Assembly (NCBI RefSeq): GCF_900156265.1
Contig: NZ_FTNE01000004.1
Span: 62,001-126,000 of the forward strand
Direction of reading: 5' to 3'
Length of the DNA: 64,000 nt
Source: Acidiphilium rubrum
Lineage (GTDB): Bacteria; Pseudomonadota; Alphaproteobacteria; Acetobacterales; Acetobacteraceae
The position numbers and the translations under genes were made by a program. This document shows, piece by piece, positions 29,784-41,481 of the stretch (positions within the stretch are counted from its first letter, which is position 1; each line of letters begins with the position of its first letter). The notes below the pieces were generated by a model that had not been told where the DNA came from, did no database searches, and saw only the letters and a program-made list of their open reading frames with translations.

Positions 29784-31688
29784 TCAGTGTTCCCTGTTGA
29801 CCGCGACGCCGTCGAGGCCACGATAGACCGTGTTGCGCGAGACGCCGAGGCTGCGGGCGGTGGCGCTGATGTTGCCGCCGTTCTCGCGAAAGGTGGCGCG
29901 AATCCGCGCGCGAACGATATCGCGTAGGTCGTGCGGGTCGTCGGACTCCGCGCGCTGCATGGCACGCTGGCCGACGAAGGTTTCCGCAGCCATTTGGTCG
30001 ATCACCCCGCCCTCCTGCTGCAATGCGAGGCGAAGCAGGGCGCTCTTCAACTCGCGAATATTGCCGCACCAGGCATGACCGGCGAGCACGCGCGCCCCAT
30101 CATCGGTGATCGTGGTATCCGGCGCGAAACGGGCGAGCAGGTGGCGCGCAATCGTTGCGAAGTCCGCCCGATCGTTCAGTGCGGGCAACCGCACTTCGGC
30201 GGTGTTGAGGCGGTAGAGCAGATCGGCACGGAAGTGCCCGGCAGCGACCGCCGCATCGAGGTCGGCATTGGTGGCCGCGATCAGACGAACATCGACCGTC
30301 CGGTTGCGGGTGCTGCCGACTGGACGGATCGTCCAATCGTCGAGGAGGCGGAGCAGCACGGCCTGCAACGGGCGTTTCATGTCACCGATTTCATCGAGGA
30401 ACAGCGTGCCGCCATCGGCTTCGGCGACCAGGCCCGGCGCGCCGCCGCGCCTCGCGCCAGTGTAGGCGCCATCGGCATAGCCGAACAACTCCGCCTCGAT
30501 CAGGGTCTCCGCCAGGGCCGCGCAATTGACGGGTACGAAAGCACCACGCCGTCCGCTGGCCGCATGGGCGTAGCGGGCAAGCAATTCCTTCCCCGTGCCG
30601 GTCGCGCCACGGATCAGGAGGGGCAGGTTGCGTGCGGCGGCCGAGGCGGCGAGGCGGAGACCGGCGGCGACCGCAGGATCGTCGGCCACGAAATCTGGTT
30701 TGACGACGTCTGGTTTCGCCTGCGGGCCGGCAATCGCCGGGCGGGCCGCGACCGCGACCGCGACCGCGACGCCGCGGGCGGCTTTCGGTGTTTCCAGCGT
30801 CGCGACATAGATGCTACCGACCCGGTCTTCCAACGTGCCGATGTCGCCGCGCGCGCAGGCGTCATGGAACACGCCGAAGCCCGTTCGGAAAATCGCATCG
30901 AAACTGCGCCCCATCACGACCGGCAGTCCGGCGAGCAGGAATCGCGCCTGGCGGTTGGCGGCGAGTACGCGCCCGCTCTCGGAAAACACCAGTATGCCGG
31001 CGCTGAGCGTTGAAAGATATTCGGGCCGGCTGTGGAACGCGATGATCCGGTGGCGCGCGTGGGTTTCGCGCAGCAGGAGGTTCTCGATCTGTACCGCGGC
31101 CATGCCGACCAGGGCGCGGGTGTGGCTCTGGCGCGATCCGCAGTCCGACGAGGCATCAAGCACGCAGGCGAGCGCACCATCCGGCCCGAATACCGGTGCC
31201 GCGATGCAGGTGATGGCATTATGGCGGCGAAAGAAATGCTCGCCACCATGAATGCTCTGCGCCGTCCCGGTCGCGATGGTGGTGCCGAGCGCGTTAGTGC
31301 CGCAATGGATTTCATCCCAGATGGTGCCGGGTTCGATCGAGGCAGCCTGCGCTTCACGCGCGAAACTGGGGTCTGCGATGGCATCGAGCAGCAGCCCATC
31401 GGGTGCTGCGAGGGCAACCATGAAGTTGCTGCCGGCGATCTGCTGGTACAATGCCCGCAACTCCGCCGAGGCAAGGCGGTGGACCATCGCGCGCTGATCG
31501 CGGGCGCGGCGGAGATGATCGGCCCCGACATTTTCAATGCGCGGCGCGGCCGTGGGATCGAGCCCGGATGACAGGCATCGCTGCCAGCTATCGCGGATAT
31601 CGGCGGACAGCAGGTCGGCGACGACCAGACCGTTCGATTCGAGCGCGGCCCGCGCGTGACCCACCCGGTCTTCGGCATGCAGCAACAT
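29784..31688 (-). CDS. AcoR-type sigma-54-dependent activator
   Basis: 634 aa from the ATG at 31688, which has GGAGG at 6 nt; an in-frame ATG 12 nt earlier contains that ribosome site and is unlikely. The N-terminal GAF-type sensor (SNFMVALAAPDGLLLDAIAD, DEIHCGTNALGTTIATG) is followed by a PAS-like part. The AAA+ domain follows with Walker A GATGTGKE near residue 360, a GAYTGA loop near 405 (Tyr for the usual Phe in the sigma-54-contact loop) and GGTLFLDEIGDM. A Fis-type HTH (GGNISATARSLGVSRNTVYR) ends it. It diverges from the beta-propeller gene. The target and effector are unknown. The domain plan matches MimR encoded 8 kb away. Confidence 0.9.
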   Translation of the reverse strand: MLLHAEDRVGHARAALESNGLVVADLLSADIRDSWQRCLSSGLDPTAAPRIENVGADHLRRARDQRAMVHRLASAELRALYQQIAGSNFMVALAAPDGLLLDAIADPSFAREAQAASIEPGTIWDEIHCGTNALGTTIATGTAQSIHGGEHFFRRHNAITCIAAPVFGPDGALACVLDASSDCGSRQSHTRALVGMAAVQIENLLLRETHARHRIIAFHSRPEYLSTLSAGILVFSESGRVLAANRQARFLLAGLPVVMGRSFDAIFRTGFGVFHDACARGDIGTLEDRVGSIYVATLETPKAARGVAVAVAVAARPAIAGPQAKPDVVKPDFVADDPAVAAGLRLAASAAARNLPLLIRGATGTGKELLARYAHAASGRRGAFVPVNCAALAETLIEAELFGYADGAYTGARRGGAPGLVAEADGGTLFLDEIGDMKRPLQAVLLRLLDDWTIRPVGSTRNRTVDVRLIAATNADLDAAVAAGHFRADLLYRLNTAEVRLPALNDRADFATIARHLLARFAPDTTITDDGARVLAGHAWCGNIRELKSALLRLALQQEGGVIDQMAAETFVGQRAMQRAESDDPHDLRDIVRARIRATFRENGGNISATARSLGVSRNTVYRGLDGVAVNREH

Positions 31689-31948
31689 GGGTTCCTCCAT
31701 TCAGCTTCGTTGGTCCGAGCTGTTTTGGCAGGGGCTCAGCACCCCGGATGTTGATCGTAGTGCATGGGAGTTCAAAACCCTAGCAAAATCCGCTGTCGAA
31801 GCTGGCATTGTTCAGAAACGGAGCGGTCCCTCCATCCTCTGTTCATGCCGACAACAACGGACATGTCGTTTTGCATTGCAGCAACCGACATAAAGACTTG
31901 ATATTCACTGCCTCCAAACCGTGGCACGGCAATTGCTATTTGGGTTTC

Positions 31949-33046
31949 ATGGATGTCGCAGCCGCTCAAGCCCCGCCGCCCCTGCACGATCTGCTCGGGG
32001 TCAGCTTTGTCTTCAACACCACCGTCAACGCGCTCGTCTGGGATGGTGATGTGGCGTGTTTCGGCCTTGCCGACGGGGCAGTCGCGCGGCTGACCTCGCA
32101 ATGGCCGGGCGCACCGCGCCTGGTACCGCGGCCGGGTGGGGGTATCGAAATCATCGCCTCCGCCGCGCCGCCGCCGCCGCCGGTGATCATCGGCGCCCAT
32201 CGCACCCCGACATTATCGCTCGCTGCGGATCCGCTCGGCGGGGTTGTGTCTGGTGGTGCCGATGGCAGGTTTCTGCGCCTCGCCGATGGCAGTGTGATGC
32301 AGCTTGCTGAGCGGGCGCGCCGGCGGATCAACGCGGTTGCTGCCGGACGCGGCGGGCGGCGGGCATTCGCCGGTGGCCGGCAGGTCGACCAGCTCGGGCC
32401 GGATCAGAAGCGCCTGACCATGCCGGGTCCGGTCGCCTCGCTGTGTTACGATCCATCCGGTCTGCATCTCGCGATCGGTTACGATGGTGGCGTGTCGCTC
32501 GAAGCGTGCGCGATCCGCCAGGCGCCGCGATTCGAGGCGCCGGGGCCGTTCCGCCTGATCTGTTGGGATGCGGATGGCGCGCGCGTGGCGGCCGCCGCGC
32601 CGGGCGGGTGTGTGGCCGTGCGTAGCCGGGCGGAGGATGTGTGGCGCACCATCGATGTGCCGATCCGCGCCACGGCGATGGGTTTCACCAGCGATGGTGT
32701 TCTGGTGATCGCTGGCGCCGAGGGTGTTTACCTGTGGGATGCCCCCGGCGGCGCGCGCCCGTTCGCGATCGGGTTCGATGGTCGCCAGGCGGTCGGGCCG
32801 ATTGCGTGCCATCCACGGCTAGGCCTGGTGGCCTGCGCCGATCGTGCGGGTGGCGTCGTGCTCGGGCGGCCCGGGCTGCGCGACGTCATGCTGATCCGCG
32901 ACGCCGGCAGTGCCCCGGTTGCGCTGGCTTTCGCGCGGAACGGCGAGGCACTGGCATTTGCGACCATGGATGGCGAGGCTGGCACGGTGCTGTTGCCCGA
33001 TCTGTTGTTCCGCCCCGCCCAGGGCGGCCGAGGAGACATGAAATGA
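31949..33046 (+). CDS. WD40/beta-propeller-like protein, unknown
   Basis: About 365 aa from the ATG at 31949; a longer form starting at 31808 is possible but its first 47 residues look like untranslated sequence and neither has a good ribosome site. Repeated short beta-type blocks such as VNALVWDGDVACFGLADGAV, SLAADPLGGVVSGGADGRFL, LCYDPSGLHLAIGYDGGVSL and ALAFARNGEALAFATMDGEA fit a seven-bladed propeller, probably a protein-binding scaffold. No catalytic motif is seen. The stop overlaps the start of a 65-aa gene (ATGA), and both lie just before the sigma-54 promoter of the mim genes. Confidence 0.7.
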   Translation: MDVAAAQAPPPLHDLLGVSFVFNTTVNALVWDGDVACFGLADGAVARLTSQWPGAPRLVPRPGGGIEIIASAAPPPPPVIIGAHRTPTLSLAADPLGGVVSGGADGRFLRLADGSVMQLAERARRRINAVAAGRGGRRAFAGGRQVDQLGPDQKRLTMPGPVASLCYDPSGLHLAIGYDGGVSLEACAIRQAPRFEAPGPFRLICWDADGARVAAAAPGGCVAVRSRAEDVWRTIDVPIRATAMGFTSDGVLVIAGAEGVYLWDAPGGARPFAIGFDGRQAVGPIACHPRLGLVACADRAGGVVLGRPGLRDVMLIRDAGSAPVALAFARNGEALAFATMDGEAGTVLLPDLLFRPAQGGRGDMK

Positions 33047-33240
33047 CCGACCCGATGACCGATGAAGAAGCTTCGAAAGATCGGTTTTTCAAGGAACTGG
33101 GCATGATCGCCGAACGCATGATTGCAGCGCACGGCAAGGATTTTGCCATGGGCGTGCTGGTGCTGGCGGCCCGCTGGATCGCCGAAGGCAAGAGCTTTGC
33201 CGAACATCGTGGTGCATCCGATGACAGGGCCGCGTCGTGA
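33043..33240 (+). CDS. 65-aa protein coupled to the propeller gene, unknown
   Basis: Starts inside the stop of the previous gene (ATGA) with AGGAG 6-10 nt upstream. The sequence is acidic at the N-terminus, then amphipathic helical (FFKELGMIAERMIAAHGKDF, AMGVLVLAARWIAEGKSF). No family is recognised. Tight coupling suggests it works with the propeller protein. It ends about 106 nt upstream of the mimA sigma-54 promoter. Confidence 0.65.
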   Translation: MTDPMTDEEASKDRFFKELGMIAERMIAAHGKDFAMGVLVLAARWIAEGKSFAEHRGASDDRAAS

Positions 33241-33256
33241 CCGTCTGTCGCAATCT

Positions 33257-33281
33257 GCCACAGCATTCACGGTGGTGTGGC
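33257..33281. promoter_or_regulatory. Candidate upstream activator site for the mim promoter
   Basis: A 25-bp imperfect dyad GCCACAGCA-N7-TGGTGTGGC (8 of 9 arm pairs match). Its centre is about 104 nt upstream of the predicted start of transcription from the sigma-54 promoter, a normal distance for a MimR/AcoR-type enhancer site. A second weaker dyad GACAG-N17-CTGTC lies at 33223-33249. Confidence 0.45.
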
Positions 33282-33346
33282 GCGGTCTGGAACAGTCTCG
33301 CGCTGCTATCGTACGGGAACCGGCTGATTTCAATGGATGCAGATCC

Positions 33347-33362
33347 TGGCACCGAACTTGCA
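33347..33362 (+). promoter_or_regulatory. Sigma-54 promoter of mimABCD
   Basis: TGGCACCGAACTTGCA matches the -24/-12 consensus TGGCAC-N5-TTGCA at every fixed position. It lies 117 nt before the mimA start, leaving an untranslated leader of about 107 nt. A sigma-54 activator gene (mimR) at the far end of the cluster supports it. Confidence 0.88.
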
Positions 33363-33479
33363 ATTCCATCCCTTGCGATCTCTGGCTGCCGGACATCCTA
33401 TGACGTGAACCGGCACAACAGACGACCGCTCGATGCGTGACGATACTTTGAGATCAACATCATTCGGGAGAAAACCAAG

Positions 33480-35150
33480 ATGCCTGATAGCTTAACGCTC
33501 AACAAAATTACCGCCCAGAAGGGGATGAGCATCAGTGATGCGACCCGTCGGGTCGCGGATCTCGGCTGGACGCCGAGCTATGTTCAGGAAGCGATGACCT
33601 TCCCGACCGACTACAAGATCAAGAAGACCCCACGCGATCCGATGAAGCAGGTGCTTCGCTCCTACTTCCCGATGCAGGAAGAAAAGGACAACCGGGTCTA
33701 TGGCGCGCTCGATGCGGCGCTGCGCGGCGACATGTTCCGCAATGTCCAGCCGCGCTGGGTCGAGTGGATGAAACTGTTTCTCGCGATCATTCCGTTCCCG
33801 GAAATCTCGGCCGCGCGCTCGATGGCGATGGTCGGGCGCCTGGCGCCGGGCGAGGAATTGCGCACCGGCTTTGCGATGCAGATGGTCGATGAATTCCGCC
33901 ACTCCACGATTCAGATGAACCTGAAGAAATGGTACATGGAAAACTACATCGATCCGGCGGGCTTTGACATCACTGAAGCGGCGTTCGGCAAATGCTATGC
34001 CTCGACGATCGGGCGGCAGTTCGCCGAGGGCTTCGTGACGGGCGATGCGATCACCTCGGCCAACATCTATCTGACCGTGGTCGCGGAAACCGCTTTCACC
34101 AACACCCTGTTCGTTGCCATGCCATCGGAAGCGGCGCGCAACGGCGACTATGCGCTGCCGACCGTGTTCCTGTCGGTGCAGTCCGACGAGAGCCGCCATA
34201 TCGGCAACGGCCATTCGCTGCTGATGTCGCTGATCAACGACCCGGACAACCACCTGCTGCTCGAGCGCGACATCAAATACGCGTTCTGGCAGAATCACGC
34301 GATCGTCGATGCCGCGATCGGCACATTTGTCGAATACGGCACGACCGATCGCAACAAGAACAAGGAGAGCTATGCCGAATTGTGGCATCGCTGGATCTAT
34401 GAGGATTACTACCGCACGTACATGCTGCCGCTCGAGAAATACGGCATCAAGATCCATCATGATGATGTCGCGGCGGCCTGGGACCGGATCGTCAAGAAGA
34501 ATTACGTGCACAAGACGGCGCAGTTCTTCTCGGTTGGCTGGTCGGTCAATTTCTGGCGCATCGAGGCGCAGACCGAGAGAGACTTCGAGTGGTTCGAGCA
34601 CAAATATCCAGGCTGGTACGCCGAGTTCGGCAATTACTGGAAATGGTATGAGAAGCTCAGCCACAAGGGCGAGACGCAGGTGCTGTTCAACGCCGACGTG
34701 GGGTATGTGTATCCGCATCGTTGCTGGTCCTGCATGGTGCCTTGCCTGATCCGCGAAGATTTCACCTATGATGAAGTGGACGGGCAGACCTACACCTACT
34801 GCTCGGAAACCTGCCGCTGGACCCACAAGGTCGCGTTCGCCGCTGAATATGAAGGGCGCCCGACGCCGGCGATGGGCCGCTTCAGCGGTCGTCGCGAGTG
34901 GGAGACCTGCTACGATGGTTGGGACATCGCCGATGCGATCACCGACCTCGGCTTCGTTCGCAACGACGGCAAGACGCTGGTGCCGCAACCGCATCTGCAT
35001 TTCGACGACAGCAAGATGTGGACGCTCGACGACGTGCGCGGCCATCAGCTGGGCAGCCCGCTGCTCAATTTCCGCAGCCTTTCGGCGGAAGGCAAGGCGG
35101 CGGCGGCGGCGGAATACCGCAAGGGTTTCGTGATCAATCCGCTGAACTGA
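33480..35150 (+). CDS. mimA: Binuclear iron monooxygenase, hydroxylase large (alpha) subunit
   Basis: 556 aa, close in length to propane-2-monooxygenase/MimA alpha subunits. The di-iron carboxylate motifs are clear: MVDEFRHST (Glu138, His141) and SDESRHIGN (Glu237, His240), the two ExxH pairs of soluble di-iron monooxygenases. The later CWSCMVPCL and YCSETCRWTH Cys clusters are typical of phenol/propane-type members. It holds the site where O2 is activated to hydroxylate an alkane, phenol or ketone. GGGAGA precedes the ATG. Order mimA-B-C-D and the following mimG favour the propane/phenol (MimABCD/PrmABCD) type. Substrate not certain. Confidence 0.93.
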   Translation: MPDSLTLNKITAQKGMSISDATRRVADLGWTPSYVQEAMTFPTDYKIKKTPRDPMKQVLRSYFPMQEEKDNRVYGALDAALRGDMFRNVQPRWVEWMKLFLAIIPFPEISAARSMAMVGRLAPGEELRTGFAMQMVDEFRHSTIQMNLKKWYMENYIDPAGFDITEAAFGKCYASTIGRQFAEGFVTGDAITSANIYLTVVAETAFTNTLFVAMPSEAARNGDYALPTVFLSVQSDESRHIGNGHSLLMSLINDPDNHLLLERDIKYAFWQNHAIVDAAIGTFVEYGTTDRNKNKESYAELWHRWIYEDYYRTYMLPLEKYGIKIHHDDVAAAWDRIVKKNYVHKTAQFFSVGWSVNFWRIEAQTERDFEWFEHKYPGWYAEFGNYWKWYEKLSHKGETQVLFNADVGYVYPHRCWSCMVPCLIREDFTYDEVDGQTYTYCSETCRWTHKVAFAAEYEGRPTPAMGRFSGRREWETCYDGWDIADAITDLGFVRNDGKTLVPQPHLHFDDSKMWTLDDVRGHQLGSPLLNFRSLSAEGKAAAAAEYRKGFVINPLN

Positions 35151-35226: not shown

Positions 35227-36264
35227 ATGACTGTGATTACGACGCATAAGGTCCGGTTCGAACCTGTCGGCATCGAAATGGAGGTCGAGGAAGGCGAGAC
35301 CGTTCTGGATGCCGCGTTCCGACAGGGTATTTCCGTGATGCACGGGTGCAAGGAAGGCCAGTGCAGCTCCTGTAAATCGAAGCTGATCGACGGCGACATC
35401 GAACTGCTCAAATATTCGACCTTCGCATTGCCCGATTACGAGCGTGATACCGGGCATATTCTTCTGTGCAAGACGCACGCTTACAGCGATCTCGAGATCG
35501 AACTGTTGAACTATGACGAGGATCTGCTGCGCCGCTCGATTCCGGTGCGCGCTTACGACGCGGTTCTTACCGGCATCGAACATCTGACGCACGACATCCG
35601 CCGCATGACCGTGGCGCTTGGCGCACCCATGAAGTTCTGGGCCGGCCAGTATGTCGACATCACGTTGGCGGATGGTGTGACGCGGGCCTATTCGATGGGC
35701 AGCCCGCCGGGCGAGCCGGACCGGCTTGCCTTCATCATCAAGAAATACCCCGATGGCGCGTTTTCAGCTTCGCTCGATACCGTTCTGCAGCCGGGCGATC
35801 GGCTGAGCATCAAGGGCCCGTACGGCACGTGTTTCCGGCGCGAGGACCGGCCGGGGCCGATGCTGCTGATCGGGGGCGGGTCGGGCATGTCGCCCTTGTG
35901 GTCCATCCTGCAGGATCATGTGGCGTCGGGCGAGCATCGGGCGGTGCGGTTTTTCTATGGGGCGCGCACCAGGGCCGATCTGTTCTATCTCGATGAATTC
36001 GCGCGGCTGGAAGCGGCATTGCCGGATTTCCGGTTCATTCCGGCCCTGTCGCACGCCGAGGATGGCGATAGCTGGACCGGCGAGCGCGGTTTCATTCACG
36101 AGGTGCTGGCACGACGATTGCGCGCCGAAGGGCTCGAAGGCGAGATGGACGCCTATTCCTGCGGACCGCCACCGATGATCGATGCCGTTCTGCCGGTTCT
36201 GCAGATGGCCGGGGTCGAGCCGGATCATATCTATTTCGACAAATTCACCACCGCCGTTCGCTGA
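35227..36264 (+). CDS. mimB: Monooxygenase reductase component (2Fe-2S, FAD, NADH)
   Basis: 345 aa. The N-terminal plant-type ferredoxin has cysteines C41, C46, C49 (HGCKEGQCSSCKSKL) and C81 (LLCKTHA). A ferredoxin-NADP-reductase-type module follows with FAD-binding TRAYSMGSPP (RxYS) near 156 and NAD-binding LLIGGGSGMSPLWSI near 216. The C-terminus CGPPPMIDAVLPVL is normal. It passes electrons from NADH to the di-iron hydroxylase. GGGAAA precedes the ATG. Confidence 0.94.
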   Translation: MTVITTHKVRFEPVGIEMEVEEGETVLDAAFRQGISVMHGCKEGQCSSCKSKLIDGDIELLKYSTFALPDYERDTGHILLCKTHAYSDLEIELLNYDEDLLRRSIPVRAYDAVLTGIEHLTHDIRRMTVALGAPMKFWAGQYVDITLADGVTRAYSMGSPPGEPDRLAFIIKKYPDGAFSASLDTVLQPGDRLSIKGPYGTCFRREDRPGPMLLIGGGSGMSPLWSILQDHVASGEHRAVRFFYGARTRADLFYLDEFARLEAALPDFRFIPALSHAEDGDSWTGERGFIHEVLARRLRAEGLEGEMDAYSCGPPPMIDAVLPVLQMAGVEPDHIYFDKFTTAVR

Positions 36265-36290: not shown

Positions 36291-37373
36291 ATGAGCGTCA
36301 CCGAGACACCGTCACCCCAGAAATCCGGCGCCGCCGGGTCCGCCACCTTCGCCGGTTCGGACAGCCGCAAATACAATTATTTCGAGCCGAAGGGCCGCAA
36401 GGCGAGCCATTACGAGGATATGACGGTCGATGTGCAGCCCGATCCGGAGCGTTATCTGCTGCAGGACTGGATCATCAGCTTCGCCGATGGCACGCCGACC
36501 TATGACAAGACCTGGACGGCGCTGAAATCGTCCAACTGGCATCAGTTCCGCGCGGTCGATCAGGAGTGGGAACGCACCCATTACCAGCGCCAGTCCACCA
36601 TTGTCGGCATGATCAGCAACCTGATCGAAAACGGCCGTCGCTCCGGTGCGCCGAAGCGGTTCGACCGGGCCTGGGTCAAGGTGCTGTCCGATCATCTCGG
36701 CGCGTACAAACATGCCGAATTCGGCCTGGGCACGGCGACGATGCAGGCGCAGCGCTACGGCTATACGCAGATGATCAATAACGCGATCCTGACGAATTCC
36801 TCGTACAAACTGCGGTTCTCGCAGGATCTGACGCTGTATCTGGGCGAACTCGCGCTCGATATCGAGGGCATCGATCTTGATGCGGGCAAGCAGCATTGGC
36901 TCGAAGACCCGATCTGGCAGGGGACGCGCCACGCGACCGAGGCGGTGATGGGGGCGACCGACTATCTGGAGCAGTATTTCGCCACCAACATCGTGTTCGA
37001 GCCCCTGGTCGGTGAATTGTTCCGCAGCGGCTTCGTCATGCAGATGGCGGCGGCGCAGAACGATTTCATGACACCGGCGGTGGTGGCGGCGGCCGAGGGT
37101 GATTACGAGCGCAACCTCGCCAATGCGGTCGAGCTGTTTCACATCCTGGTGCTCGACCCGGACCATGGCGACAGTAACCGGGCCATCCTGGTGCAATGGA
37201 TGCACAAGCACGGCTCGCTCGCGCTCGATGCGGCGCATCATCTGCAGCCGATCTGGTCGCAACCGCGGGTCAAGGTCGCTCAGTTCGCCGATGCGCTCGA
37301 TCTCGCGAAAAACCGGGTGCGCGCGATCGCGGCTGAGATCGGCTTCGATGTTCGTGCCACGCTGGATCAGTAA
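36291..37373 (+). CDS. mimC: Monooxygenase hydroxylase small (beta) subunit
   Basis: 360 aa, usual for the beta subunit of propane/phenol/alkene monooxygenases. Typical stretches are RKASHYEDMTVDVQPDPERY, LQDWIISFADGTPTYDKTWT and YKHAEFGLGTATMQAQRYGY, and VFEPLVGELFRSGFVMQMAA. It has the ferritin-like fold but lacks the metal ligands of the alpha subunit and gives structure to the hydroxylase. AGGAGAG precedes the start; 26 nt after mimB. Confidence 0.93.
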   Translation: MSVTETPSPQKSGAAGSATFAGSDSRKYNYFEPKGRKASHYEDMTVDVQPDPERYLLQDWIISFADGTPTYDKTWTALKSSNWHQFRAVDQEWERTHYQRQSTIVGMISNLIENGRRSGAPKRFDRAWVKVLSDHLGAYKHAEFGLGTATMQAQRYGYTQMINNAILTNSSYKLRFSQDLTLYLGELALDIEGIDLDAGKQHWLEDPIWQGTRHATEAVMGATDYLEQYFATNIVFEPLVGELFRSGFVMQMAAAQNDFMTPAVVAAAEGDYERNLANAVELFHILVLDPDHGDSNRAILVQWMHKHGSLALDAAHHLQPIWSQPRVKVAQFADALDLAKNRVRAIAAEIGFDVRATLDQ

Positions 37374-37397: not shown

Positions 37398-37763
37398 ATG
37401 GCTCAAGCTCATACCGCGACGATCTTCAAATCGATGAAGGACATGCAGTTCGAGGGCACGATTTCGCACCAGTGCGGCGTGACCATGAACGACAGTGTCG
37501 AAGCCCGCGCGATTGCCGATGTGATGGCTGAAAAGCCGGGCATTTCGGTGACCTACCAGCCGGCGCTCATCCGCATCGATGGCGAAGGCAAGATGACGTT
37601 CAAGATGGACGAGATTTCCGAAGCACTCGGCCGTGTCATGACGCCTTATCTGTTCGAGATTTCCACCTCGACCCATTATGGCCGCATGGTGATGGTCGAT
37701 GACAACACCGTTGTGTTGTTCGGCGACATGGACGAGGCGATGGAATACATCAAATACGACTGA
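37398..37763 (+). CDS. mimD: Monooxygenase coupling (effector) protein
   Basis: 121 aa, MmoB/DmpM family. HQCGVTMNDSVEARAIADVM and the middle PGISVTYQPALIRIDGEGKM with FKMDEISEALGRVMTPYLFE are the family core. It binds the hydroxylase and tunes O2 activation and specificity; it has no cofactor. AAGGAT precedes the ATG, 24 nt after mimC. Confidence 0.93.
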   Translation: MAQAHTATIFKSMKDMQFEGTISHQCGVTMNDSVEARAIADVMAEKPGISVTYQPALIRIDGEGKMTFKMDEISEALGRVMTPYLFEISTSTHYGRMVMVDDNTVVLFGDMDEAMEYIKYD

Positions 37764-37872: not shown

Positions 37873-39504
37873 ATGGCCAAGATGATGCTCCACGACGATG
37901 AAGCTCGCGCCGCGCTGGGGCGTGGCGTCGCGCAACTGGCCCGGGCCGTGCGCGGCACCATGGGGCCGCGCGGCATGAACGCCATCATCGACCGGCCAAT
38001 CGGCACGCCGATGGTCTCGCGTGATGGCGTGTCGATCGCCGCCGAGGTTGAACTGGCATGCCGGTTCGAGAATATGGGTGCGCAGATCCTGCGTGAGGTT
38101 TCCGCCCAGACCAATCTGGAGGCGGGCGATGGCACCACGACCGCGACGGTCCTGGCCGATGCGCTGGTGCAGAAAGGGCTGGCGCGGATGGCGGCGGGCG
38201 ATAATGCCGTGGAACTCGTCGCCGGGATCGAGGCGGCGGCCGATGAGGTGATCGCCGCCTTGCGCGCCCGTGCCCGGCCGCTGCGCGATGCGGCGGAAAT
38301 GCGCGCGGTTGCGACGATCGCCGCGAACGATGCCGCGACAGGCGCACTGGTGGCCGAGGCGATCGAGCGGGCCGGGCCGCAGGGTATCGTCACCGTCGAG
38401 AATAGCGCCACGGTAGAGACCATGCTCGACGTGATAGACGGCATGGGCTTCGACCGCGGCTATATTTCGCATCACATGGTCACCGATGTGGAGCGCATGC
38501 AGGCGGTGCTCGATAATCCGCTGATCCTGATGACCGATCTGAAAATCACCACCGCCGCCGAGATCGAACAGATCCGCGCACTGGTGGGTGCAAGCAACCA
38601 GCCGCTGCTGGTGATCGCCGAGGAGGTGGCGCCGGCCGCGGTAATGGCGCTGCTGGCGGACCGTGCGGGTGGCGTGCCGGTCGCTGCGATTCATCCGCCT
38701 GAATATGGGCATTGGCGCAAGGCGATGCTTGAGGATATCGCGATCATCACCGGTGGGCGCGTCATTGCGCGCGAATTGGGCGGCACGATCGCCAATGCCA
38801 CCCGCGCCGATCTGGGCAGTGCGCGCCAGGTGCGCGTCGGCTCGGGCATGACCGTGATTTCCGGCGGCGGCGGCGACCTTGCCGCGATCGCCGCGCGGCG
38901 CGAGCAGGTGCGCCGCCAGGTCGATCTGGCACCCAACGATATCGATCGCGATAAGCTCGAACAGCGCCTTGCCAAGCTGTCGGGCGGCACCGCGACGATC
39001 ATGGCCGGCGGTGCGACGCCGGTGGCGCAGAAGCGCCATGCCCAGCTGATCGAGGATTCATTGGCGGCCGCGCGCGCCGCGATTGCCGAAGGCGTGGTGG
39101 CCGGTGGCGGCACGGCGTTGGCGCAGATCGCGCCGAGCCTGAACACCAACGCGAAGCTGTTGAACGGTGCGCGGGCCGGCGCGCTGCTGCTGCGCGATGC
39201 GCTGACCGCGCCGCTGGCCGCGATTGCGACCAACAGCGGCTTCAACCCCGAGGAAATGGTGGCGCAGGTGATGGCCGCGATCCAGGGCACCGGACTCGAT
39301 GCGCGGACCGGCAAAATGGTCGCCATGGAGGCGGCCGGCATCATCGATCCGGTGCGGGTCAGCATCAGCGCGCTGCGCAATGCGGTTTCGGTGGCGTCCT
39401 TGATCCTGACCACGCATACTCTGATCGCGGATAAACCCGACTACGACGACCCGACCGCCGGCCCGGCCCTGGGCGGCGGTGCCGAGTTGCTCGGGAGGGC
39501 ATAA
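37873..39504 (+). CDS. mimG: GroEL-like chaperonin dedicated to the monooxygenase
   Basis: A 543-aa group I chaperonin with the ATP motif GDGTTTATVLADAL near residue 86 and the usual KVTKDGV-like region (here PMVSRDGVSIAAEVEL). It lacks the GGM-rich tail of housekeeping GroEL (ends GPALGGGAELLGRA) and has no groES beside it. Conserved positions are more diverged than in GroEL1. In mycobacterial mim clusters a GroEL-like MimG is known to be needed to fold the hydroxylase, and the position here suggests the same. AAGGGA precedes the ATG. Confidence 0.92.
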   Translation: MAKMMLHDDEARAALGRGVAQLARAVRGTMGPRGMNAIIDRPIGTPMVSRDGVSIAAEVELACRFENMGAQILREVSAQTNLEAGDGTTTATVLADALVQKGLARMAAGDNAVELVAGIEAAADEVIAALRARARPLRDAAEMRAVATIAANDAATGALVAEAIERAGPQGIVTVENSATVETMLDVIDGMGFDRGYISHHMVTDVERMQAVLDNPLILMTDLKITTAAEIEQIRALVGASNQPLLVIAEEVAPAAVMALLADRAGGVPVAAIHPPEYGHWRKAMLEDIAIITGGRVIARELGGTIANATRADLGSARQVRVGSGMTVISGGGGDLAAIAARREQVRRQVDLAPNDIDRDKLEQRLAKLSGGTATIMAGGATPVAQKRHAQLIEDSLAAARAAIAEGVVAGGGTALAQIAPSLNTNAKLLNGARAGALLLRDALTAPLAAIATNSGFNPEEMVAQVMAAIQGTGLDARTGKMVAMEAAGIIDPVRVSISALRNAVSVASLILTTHTLIADKPDYDDPTAGPALGGGAELLGRA

Positions 39505-39516
39505 CCGGAGGCCGGA

Positions 39517-41481
39517 TTGTCGAAGCGGCGGATCAACGGGCCGATCGACCATGACCGGGCACGCCCGCGCACCGAGCTGGTGACGCGCACCGAAGCGCTG
39601 CCGGACCAGGAGGCGATGTGGGCGTGGGAGCGGTTTCTGACCGGCGAACCTGAAGCCGCGATTCCGCTCGGCAATGTCGTGGTGTCGTCCTGGCAGCGCA
39701 GCCTTGCCCTCGGCGTCAATCCGACCGGCCGGGCCGCACCGATCGCCGCACAGGGCGACTCGATCCTGACCCTGCGCCATCGCAACCGCGACCTGATCGC
39801 GGCCTCGCGCGATCTGTTTCAGCGCATCGCCGATGTGTTCGCCGGTTCGAACTGCATGATGCTGCTGACCGACCCGGATGGCGTGGTGCTCGAAGCGGTG
39901 GGCGACCACCGCACGCTGGGGCAGGGCGAACGCATTCATCTGGTCGCAGGCGGTCATTGGCGTGAAGACGTGATCGGCACCAACGGCATCGGCACCGCCC
40001 TCGCCACCGGTCAGCCGGCACAGGTGCATGCCACGGAACATTTCTGCGAAGGCATCAAAAGCTGGACCTGTGCGGCCGCCCCGGTGCGCGAACCGGGAAC
40101 CGGGCGCATTCTCGGCGTGGTCGATATTTCGGGCCCGCCATCGACTTACCAACGCGGCAATCTCTCGCTCGCGGTCGCGACGGCCCGCCAGATCGAGACC
40201 GCGCTGGCGGAACGCACCGGGCGCGAGCGGGTGCGCCTGCTGGAACGCTGCCTGCAACGCATGCCGACGATCGGTAACTCCGAACTGCTCGCGATCGATC
40301 GCGCCGGCCGGATCGTCTATTCCAACGGCAAAGGCGCGCTGCCGGGTCTTGGTGAAACCCTTGCCGGTTTCGATCCCGATCAGCCGGTGGAGCGGTGGTT
40401 CGACCGGATGCCCGAGCCGCTGCGCGCGGACGGCGCGTTCGACCCGGTATTGCTCGATGATCGTACCGTGGGGGCGATGATCGTGGTACCGGCCCGCAAC
40501 CGACCCGCCAAACGAGATGCACCGCCCGCCGGGTCCGAAGCGGATGCCAGCCGCAATGCGTTTCATCACATCATCGGGGCCAGCGCCGCCATGCTGCAGG
40601 CCACCAAACGCGCCGAGCAGCTCGCGCGGCACCGCGTGCCGGTGTTGATCCATGGCGAGACCGGCGTCGGCAAGGAATTGCTCGCCCGGGCCATGCACGG
40701 CAGTCTTGATTTTTCGGCGCCGTTCGTCGTGTTCAACTGCGGTGCTGCCTCGAAAGACCTGATCGGTGCCGAATTGTTCGGCCATGTCAAAGGCGCTTTT
40801 ACCGGTGCGACGGCCGATGGCCGGCCAGGCCGGTTCGAACTCGCCGATGGCGGCACTTTGTGCCTCGATGAAATCGGCGAACTGCCGCTCGATTTGCAAC
40901 CACTGCTGCTGCGCGCCCTCGAGGAAGGCGTGATCTATCGGCTCGGCGATACCACGCCGCGCAAGGTCGCCGTCCGGCTGGTCGCCATGACCAACCGGGA
41001 CCTGCGCGATGAGGTGGCGGCGGGGCGGTTTCGGCGGGATCTGTTCTATCGGATCAACGTGACCGCAATCACCGTGCCGCCCTTGCGCGCGCGGAACGGC
41101 GATGTCGATCTGCTGATCGCGCATTTCAATACCAGCGTGGCCGCGCGCCACGGCGTGCCGCCGCGCCGGTTCGGCGCCGATCTGCTGGCGGTGCTGCGGG
41201 CGTATCATTGGCCGGGCAACGTGCGTGAACTGCGCAATCTGGTCGAATCGTTACTGCTGGCGGGGGAATCCGAGAATGTCATGATCGATGAAATTCCGCT
41301 CGACATGCGCGGTGCCCCTGCCGCCGATGCGCCACCCTCGGGTCGGCTGGTCGATATCGAGGCCGAGGCGATGCATCGCGCGATCGAGGCCGCCGGCGGC
41401 AACATCTCCGAGGCCGCGCGCCTGCTTGGCGTGTCGCGCAGCACGCTGCACCGCAGGCTGGGGCGGGCAGGTTCACGCTGA
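39517..41481 (+). CDS. mimR: Sigma-54-dependent activator of the mim genes (AcoR-type)
   Basis: 654 aa with a TTG start; GGAGG lies 5 nt upstream, and it begins 12 nt after mimG. An N-terminal GAF-type sensor (SNCMMLLTDPDGVVLEAVGD, EDVIGTNGIGTALATGQPAQ) and a PAS-like part lead to the AAA+ domain: Walker A GETGVGKE near 381, the sigma-54 loop GAFTGA near 425, Walker B GGTLCLDEIGEL. A Fis-type HTH closes it (GGNISEAARLLGVSRSTLHR). It should activate the consensus sigma-54 promoter before mimA in response to substrate. No other candidate regulator is within the cluster. Confidence 0.92.
   Translation: MSKRRINGPIDHDRARPRTELVTRTEALPDQEAMWAWERFLTGEPEAAIPLGNVVVSSWQRSLALGVNPTGRAAPIAAQGDSILTLRHRNRDLIAASRDLFQRIADVFAGSNCMMLLTDPDGVVLEAVGDHRTLGQGERIHLVAGGHWREDVIGTNGIGTALATGQPAQVHATEHFCEGIKSWTCAAAPVREPGTGRILGVVDISGPPSTYQRGNLSLAVATARQIETALAERTGRERVRLLERCLQRMPTIGNSELLAIDRAGRIVYSNGKGALPGLGETLAGFDPDQPVERWFDRMPEPLRADGAFDPVLLDDRTVGAMIVVPARNRPAKRDAPPAGSEADASRNAFHHIIGASAAMLQATKRAEQLARHRVPVLIHGETGVGKELLARAMHGSLDFSAPFVVFNCGAASKDLIGAELFGHVKGAFTGATADGRPGRFELADGGTLCLDEIGELPLDLQPLLLRALEEGVIYRLGDTTPRKVAVRLVAMTNRDLRDEVAAGRFRRDLFYRINVTAITVPPLRARNGDVDLLIAHFNTSVAARHGVPPRRFGADLLAVLRAYHWPGNVRELRNLVESLLLAGESENVMIDEIPLDMRGAPAADAPPSGRLVDIEAEAMHRAIEAAGGNISEAARLLGVSRSTLHRRLGRAGSR

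Follow-up and report, generated by a model that had tools for sequence, protein, structure and literature searches.

Among the closest described counterparts of the locus considered here are the sMMO operons of methanotrophs, which, according to the sections of PMC5874634 devoted to them, are under the control of sigma-54, MmoR and MmoG. The same sections give the sigma-54 motif as YTGGCACGrNNNTTGCW. Upstream sites of the form TGT-N(10-12)-ACA are described in part of PMC6615313 for FhlA, NifA and 15 groups of clostridial activators, where the similarity between motifs follows the similarity between the DNA-binding domains.

The window, a 64,000-nucleotide stretch of Acidiphilium rubrum DNA (contig NZ_FTNE01000004.1, positions 62,001 to 126,000), carries a putative propane/acetone-type monooxygenase operon, for which “mim” is a name given by similarity. 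It comprises, all on the forward strand, a mimA-like gene for the hydroxylase large subunit (33480-35150; Pfam Phenol_Hydrox, E 1.8e-62), a mimB-like reductase gene (35227-36264), a mimC-like gene for the hydroxylase small subunit (36291-37373), a mimD-like gene for a coupling protein (37398-37763; Pfam MmoB_DmpM), a gene for a GroEL-like chaperonin (37873-39504) and mimR (39517-41481). MimA of the nearest named relative, Acidiphilium sp. PA, is identical. No NCBIfam model matched MimA, and the coupling protein scores 114 bits with the curated NCBIfam MimD model, under its cut-off of 150, so that this model does not place the operon in the propane 2-monooxygenase MimABCD class. The chaperonin scores 530 with TIGR02348, against a GroEL equivalog cut-off of 582, and may be a paralogue with a specialised role, comparable to MmoG of the sMMO operons. 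Methylocella silvestris presumably carries a prmABCDGR cluster with the same gene order.

MimR contains a GAF domain, a sigma-54 activator AAA+ domain with a GAFTGA motif, and a Fis-type HTH with the recognition helix SRSTLHR. Its true start is likely the ATG at 39616, because the alignments to many relatives begin only near residue 30. Counted from the end of groEL, the mimR open frame follows after 12 nt, or after 111 nt with this start. As had been predicted, the cluster closes with the activator gene: no mim gene lies beyond mimR, which is followed, on the same strand, by a gene for a desaturase.

Two further forward-strand genes lie upstream of mimA. The first, at 31949-33046 (start codon predicted), is WD40-like, with a weak Pfam WD40 match under the cut-off, and has a relative in 51 of the 80 mim loci surveyed. 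The second (33043-33240) encodes a protein of 65 aa that matched neither Pfam nor NCBIfam at E 0.001. A relative of it occurs in 78 of the 80 loci, in 71 of these on the same strand and at most 900 nt upstream of mimA, and it is perhaps a conserved, unnamed accessory part of this monooxygenase.

The sequence TGGCACCGAACTTGCA at 33347-33362 on the forward strand matches the sigma-54 -24/-12 pattern TGGCAC-N5-TTGCA exactly, with CGAAC as the spacer. The original prediction had reported this match, and it proves to be the sole exact one in the window (shuffle mean 0.05; 5 of 100 shuffles contained one). Across the 3.98-Mb genome the pattern matches exactly at six places and with no more than one mismatch at 72, compared with 46 for a reversed control pattern, so the sequence match by itself proves little. 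The promoter sequence alone is modest evidence, and the weight rests on position and conservation. The -24 GG and -12 GC have the spacing of the class, rpoN is present in the genome (384.9 bits against a cut-off of 277.35), an AAA+ activator with GAFTGA is encoded nearby, and 39 of the 42 relatives that have a MimR ortholog show a sigma-54 element no more than 500 nt from mimA (1.65 in shuffles). The element is thus very likely a real sigma-54 promoter. Transcripts from promoters of this class start about 11-13 nt downstream of the element; here the start is predicted near 33373, which would give a 5' leader of about 107 nt.

Neither a sigma-70-like promoter nor a terminator-like site was found in 33150-33500, and no Rfam family reached its gathering score in 31600-33600. 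An IHF site between the enhancer and the promoter was considered and dropped, since real and shuffled sequences are barely apart in their mean best scores (6.64 and 6.40, respectively, over 45 dereplicated regions); the best IHF score in the window is 8/9.

Alignment of the regions upstream of mimA in close relatives brought out a pair of tandem 17-bp palindromes with the consensus TGTCSCA-N3-TGSGACA. The first of these in the window, UAS1 (TGTCGCAATCTGCCACA, 33246-33262), matches 13 of the 14 consensus positions and is a proposed MimR site. UAS2 (TGGCGCGGTCTGGAACA, 33278-33294), which starts 32 bp past the start of UAS1 and 69 bp ahead of the -24 element, matches 11 of 14 and is weak by itself; its palindromic pairs number 3 of 7, which is a point against the model. 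If one mismatch at most to TGTCSCANNNTGSGACA is allowed, the genome contains just two such sites: UAS1 and one (C25:16714) inside an open reading frame that reads as glycosyltransferase-like. The sites resemble the TGT-N11-ACA enhancer class in being palindromic, upstream, multiple and conserved, with the second copy weak in the window. When the letters of the half-site were permuted, the true half-site ranked first of all 1260 permutations, with 45 of the 84 dereplicated regions containing it. Behind it come three near-copies, in 40 (TSTCGCA), 29 and 28 regions, and 12 permutations, the true half-site included, reach at least 10 regions.

The survey covered the best 80 of 451 confirmed relatives, chosen by MimA similarity. 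By tblastn, these were sorted into 42 loci whose MimR ortholog reaches at least 50% identity, 5 that have a relative of 43-50% identity, 21 without MimR on a contig long enough to judge, and 12 that were cut by the end of a contig. The full arrangement was defined as two sites of at least 10/14 that are 31-35 bp apart, together with a sigma-54 element of at least 9/11 located 50-110 nt downstream of the sites, all at most 500 nt from mimA. It was present in 33 of the 42 loci with a MimR ortholog, in none of the 5 with a more distant relative, in none of the 21 without MimR, and in 6 of the 12 contig-cut loci; the shuffle mean was 0.0 in every group. Nine loci with a MimR ortholog fall short of the full arrangement: seven have no scored tandem and three no scored promoter, with one of them lacking both. 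The loci share descent, and the shuffle counts and the phasing p-values given below therefore overstate independence.

Because these first 80 loci had served to define the motif, further loci were tested. A held-out set of 48 was reduced to 31 by removing 17: 14 that nearly duplicated loci used before (8-mer Jaccard above 0.2), L106 and L115, whose clipped flanks shifted the coordinates, and L139, a partial match. The full arrangement was found in all 17 loci from genus g318 and in both new loci from the window’s own family, in 1 of 6 loci from genus g501, which belongs to the same family as g318, in none of 5 loci with MimR relatives of 46-48% identity, and not in the one locus without MimR. 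Five of the six g501 loci lack the tandem, even though they carry a sigma-54 element and a MimR relative of 52-54% identity. The g318 regulators, which do have the tandem, are no closer to the MimR of the window, at 49-52% identity (47-49% for four that were read separately). Overall MimR identity is therefore no predictor of the motif, and the g501 result speaks against a simple rule that MimR means this motif. One g318 genome, G1213, yielded no MimR match at E 1e-130, though the tandem precedes its mimA; another, G1217, has a stop codon within mimA.

The presence of the tandem sites, as read from these genomes, tracks the recognition helix of MimR. Of 38 MimR-family regulators with SRST, 31 are accompanied by the full arrangement: 26 of 33 from the main survey and five fetched separately, for which the arrangement was seen at their mimA loci. 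Regulators with SRPT (5), SRAT (2) or SRTT (1) lack it in all eight cases; each of the two SRAT loci has a single site of 12/14. Seven SRST loci are exceptions: in L023 the sites are 30 bp apart, in L066 no promoter was scored next to the pair, and L033, L047, L069, L075 and L082 have no pair at the accepted spacing. The one g501 regulator that was read has SRTT.

Seven loci (L084, L085, L087, L089 and L101-L103) have a sigma-54 element 305-323 nt before mimA and no TGTCSCA pair. Wherever the helix of their MimR relatives was read, it is SRPT; L084 yielded no such relative. Four of them, the Mesorhizobium loci L084, L085, L087 and L089, show, by eye, GTTACA/TGTAA-like repeats upstream of mimA, and have their WD40-like and 65-aa genes on the opposite strand, about 2.5-2.7 kb upstream of mimA.

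When spacings from 17 to 120 bp were scanned, 31-34 bp accounted for 51 of the 65 site pairs. The distance from UAS2 to the -24 element, measured in 45 dereplicated regions, falls into groups at 58 (1 region), 67-71 (15), 80-82 (7) and 89-93 bp (22), and the 69 bp of the window belongs to the second of these. For phasing, R is 0.853 at 10.5 bp, with a peak of 0.858 at 10.75; the nominal p at 10.5 bp, 5.9e-15, takes the loci as unrelated. The distances advance in steps of roughly one helical turn, as looping activation on one face of the helix predicts.

A second activator and a second likely sigma-54 promoter, both upstream, went unmentioned in the original prediction. Reg2, encoded on the reverse strand at 29784-31700 and divergent from the WD40-like gene, is a predicted sigma-54 activator with GAYTGA, a variant that can function in such activators, and with the recognition helix SRNTVYR. 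A probable second sigma-54 promoter, TGGCACGGCAATTGCT, matching at 10 of 11 positions, lies upstream of the WD40-like gene on the forward strand (31922-31937), 1.4 kb upstream of the proximal one. It is preceded at 113 and 82 nt by two weak Reg2-type sites of 9/12 each, TGTTCAGAAACGGAGCG (31809-31825) and TGTTCATGCCGACAACA (31840-31856). Reg2-type promoters were scored among the relatives as TGTTCC-N5-GGAACA of at least 11/12 with a sigma-54 element 60-150 nt downstream, at most 8 kb upstream of mimA. As raw counts, they are found in 32 of 42 loci with Reg2 and in none of the 38 others, four of which have less than 4 kb of upstream DNA. The ten loci that have Reg2 and no strong promoter of this type include L010, the nearest relative of the window, in which the distal sigma-54 element is also present. 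In the Bradyrhizobium type, the distances of the Reg2-type sites are typically 104 and 71-72 nt, so that they are again paired, and relatives of this type without MimR have the Reg2-type promoter only. In one Bradyrhizobium relative, L032, this promoter is followed by a gene that reads as alcohol-dehydrogenase-like, the small gene and mimABCD, and no proximal promoter was scored at that locus. The end was read for 41 Reg2 proteins, and in each of them the recognition helix has SRN. There is, then, probably a second, similar sigma-54 switch upstream of the mimABCD one.

What comparison of the genomes establishes is the predicted promoter and the two tandem sites, how these are spaced and phased, and that they go together with MimR and its recognition helix. 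The claim that mimABCD has a sigma-54 promoter activated from upstream by MimR is well supported by such comparison, given rpoN, GAFTGA and the conserved element and sites, and the explanation as a whole, in which a promoter for mimABCD-groEL-mimR is switched on by MimR at the tandem palindromes, is highly probable. MimR, a GAF enhancer-binding protein encoded at the end of the operon, would bind 33246-33262 and 33278-33294 and contact the closed complex by looping, always from the same face of the helix. Once its GAF domain senses a small molecule, ATP hydrolysis by MimR would lead to the open complex. MimR is probably made from the very promoter that it activates, which would provide positive feedback, and the GroEL-like protein may aid the folding of MimR or of the hydroxylase. 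Reg2 probably acts at the separate promoter at 31922-31937, before the WD40-like gene. Read-through from there to mimA is possible, as 33150-33500 contains no terminator-like site, and could supply basal MimR.

Where MimR would bind was first sought in a 25-bp dyad, GCCACAGCA/TGGTGTGGC, at 33257-33281. This dyad is present and centred about 104 nt upstream of the predicted start, as claimed, and the 8 of 9 complementary positions of its arms (33257-33265 and 33273-33281, separated by a 7-nt gap) would suit its being bound as one site. It is one among eight inverted pairs reported within 451 nt, and it joins the right half of UAS1 to the left end of UAS2, thereby overlapping the conserved UAS1; the tandem pair begins 11 bp before it and finishes 13 bp beyond it. 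Against binding as one site, its arms pair at only 4 of 9 positions in L010, a close relative whose MimA is 100% identical, and at between 2 and 6 of the 9 in the 16 further relatives with 32-bp site spacing, and the exact string occurs in 2 of 148 loci, both of which are the window’s own DNA. The dyad is thus not kept in related clusters, the very outcome that the original prediction had named as counting against it, while the tandem sites that surround it are. For want of conservation it was rejected as the enhancer, and it is scarcely conceivable that MimR binds it as a single site. The original prediction appears to have been in the wrong register: the conserved unit is the two TGTCSCA-N3-TGSGACA palindromes, which are the better supported candidate MimR sites.

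Nearly as hard to credit is the view that the proximal element is a chance match and that mimABCD is read from the upstream WD40-sml promoter. The six exact matches in the genome and the missing terminator-like site would allow for it, but the element is conserved at a fixed spacing across the relatives with MimR and has no other exact match in the window. It is somewhat easier to imagine, though still improbable, that the proximal promoter is real and that mimABCD is activated mainly by Reg2, acting at the distal promoter or by cross-binding. Reg2 is encoded next to the operon region and has a sigma-54 activator domain with GAYTGA, and among the 21 loci without MimR, 20 have Reg2, 20 have no scored proximal promoter and most have a distal Reg2-type promoter. 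However, the proximal tandem follows MimR, the full arrangement being found in 21 loci with MimR in which no Reg2 was detected and in none of the 21 without MimR, and the Reg2-type sites of the window are weak (9/12). Activation by MimR at the tandem palindromes is accordingly the preferred reading.

Beyond activation by MimR at these sites, a more elaborate scenario can be put forward as a tentative possibility, and a doubtful one when its parts are taken jointly. Read-through from the distal, Reg2-driven promoter would yield the first MimR, which would then take over at the internal promoter through the two phased sites; the operon would have switched activators in the course of evolution; and the helix residue S (SRST), N (SRNT, SRNM) or P (SRPT) would pair with TGTCSCA, TGTTCC or neither, respectively. 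If this is true, the pairing of helix residue and enhancer would amount to a readable specificity code for Fis-type sigma-54 activators.

For a group of monooxygenases with an uncertain inducer and natural substrate, the tandem palindromes offer a concrete, conserved, predicted target on the DNA at which the activator would bind, and these sites are short. The natural set of spacings by helical turns and the pairing of helix residues with sites provide ready comparisons for the contact between sigma-54 activator and promoter. The mechanism class is already known, and these MimR/PrmR sites are apparently undescribed: no publication giving them for a MimR or PrmR was found in the open-licence literature, which is weak evidence of absence, and the words monooxygenase and propane are absent from the main text of a 2025 survey of sigma-54 regulons (PMC12316311).

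The mycobacterial mimABCD, mimR and groEL genes resemble the present operon in gene names and gene set, and the section of PMC8394569 on them describes no sigma-54 promoter. The sMMO operons, as presented in the sections of PMC5874634 noted above, are likewise diiron monooxygenase operons with a sigma-54 motif before the large-subunit gene and with linked genes for an activator and a GroEL-like protein, and the MmoR of Methylocella and Methyloferula contains a GAF domain. They encode another group of monooxygenases, however, and whereas the Methylosinus chaperonin MmoG is reported there to be needed for activator binding, what is seen here is linkage of the genes. AdhR of Clostridium beijerinckii, in the part of PMC7017808 concerned with its binding sites, is likewise a GAF activator with several upstream sites that all contribute, for which a looping model is given; it differs in having three sites and alcohol dehydrogenase targets and in having been tested experimentally, while the present system is known from sequence. 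The sites of FhlA, NifA and the clostridial activators, as far as the cited part of PMC6615313 describes them, belong to other bacteria and other target genes, and the half-site here is specifically TGTCSCA, but they share with the present locus the TGT-N11-ACA palindrome, its occurrence in several copies upstream of a sigma-54 promoter, and an activator with a Fis-type HTH.
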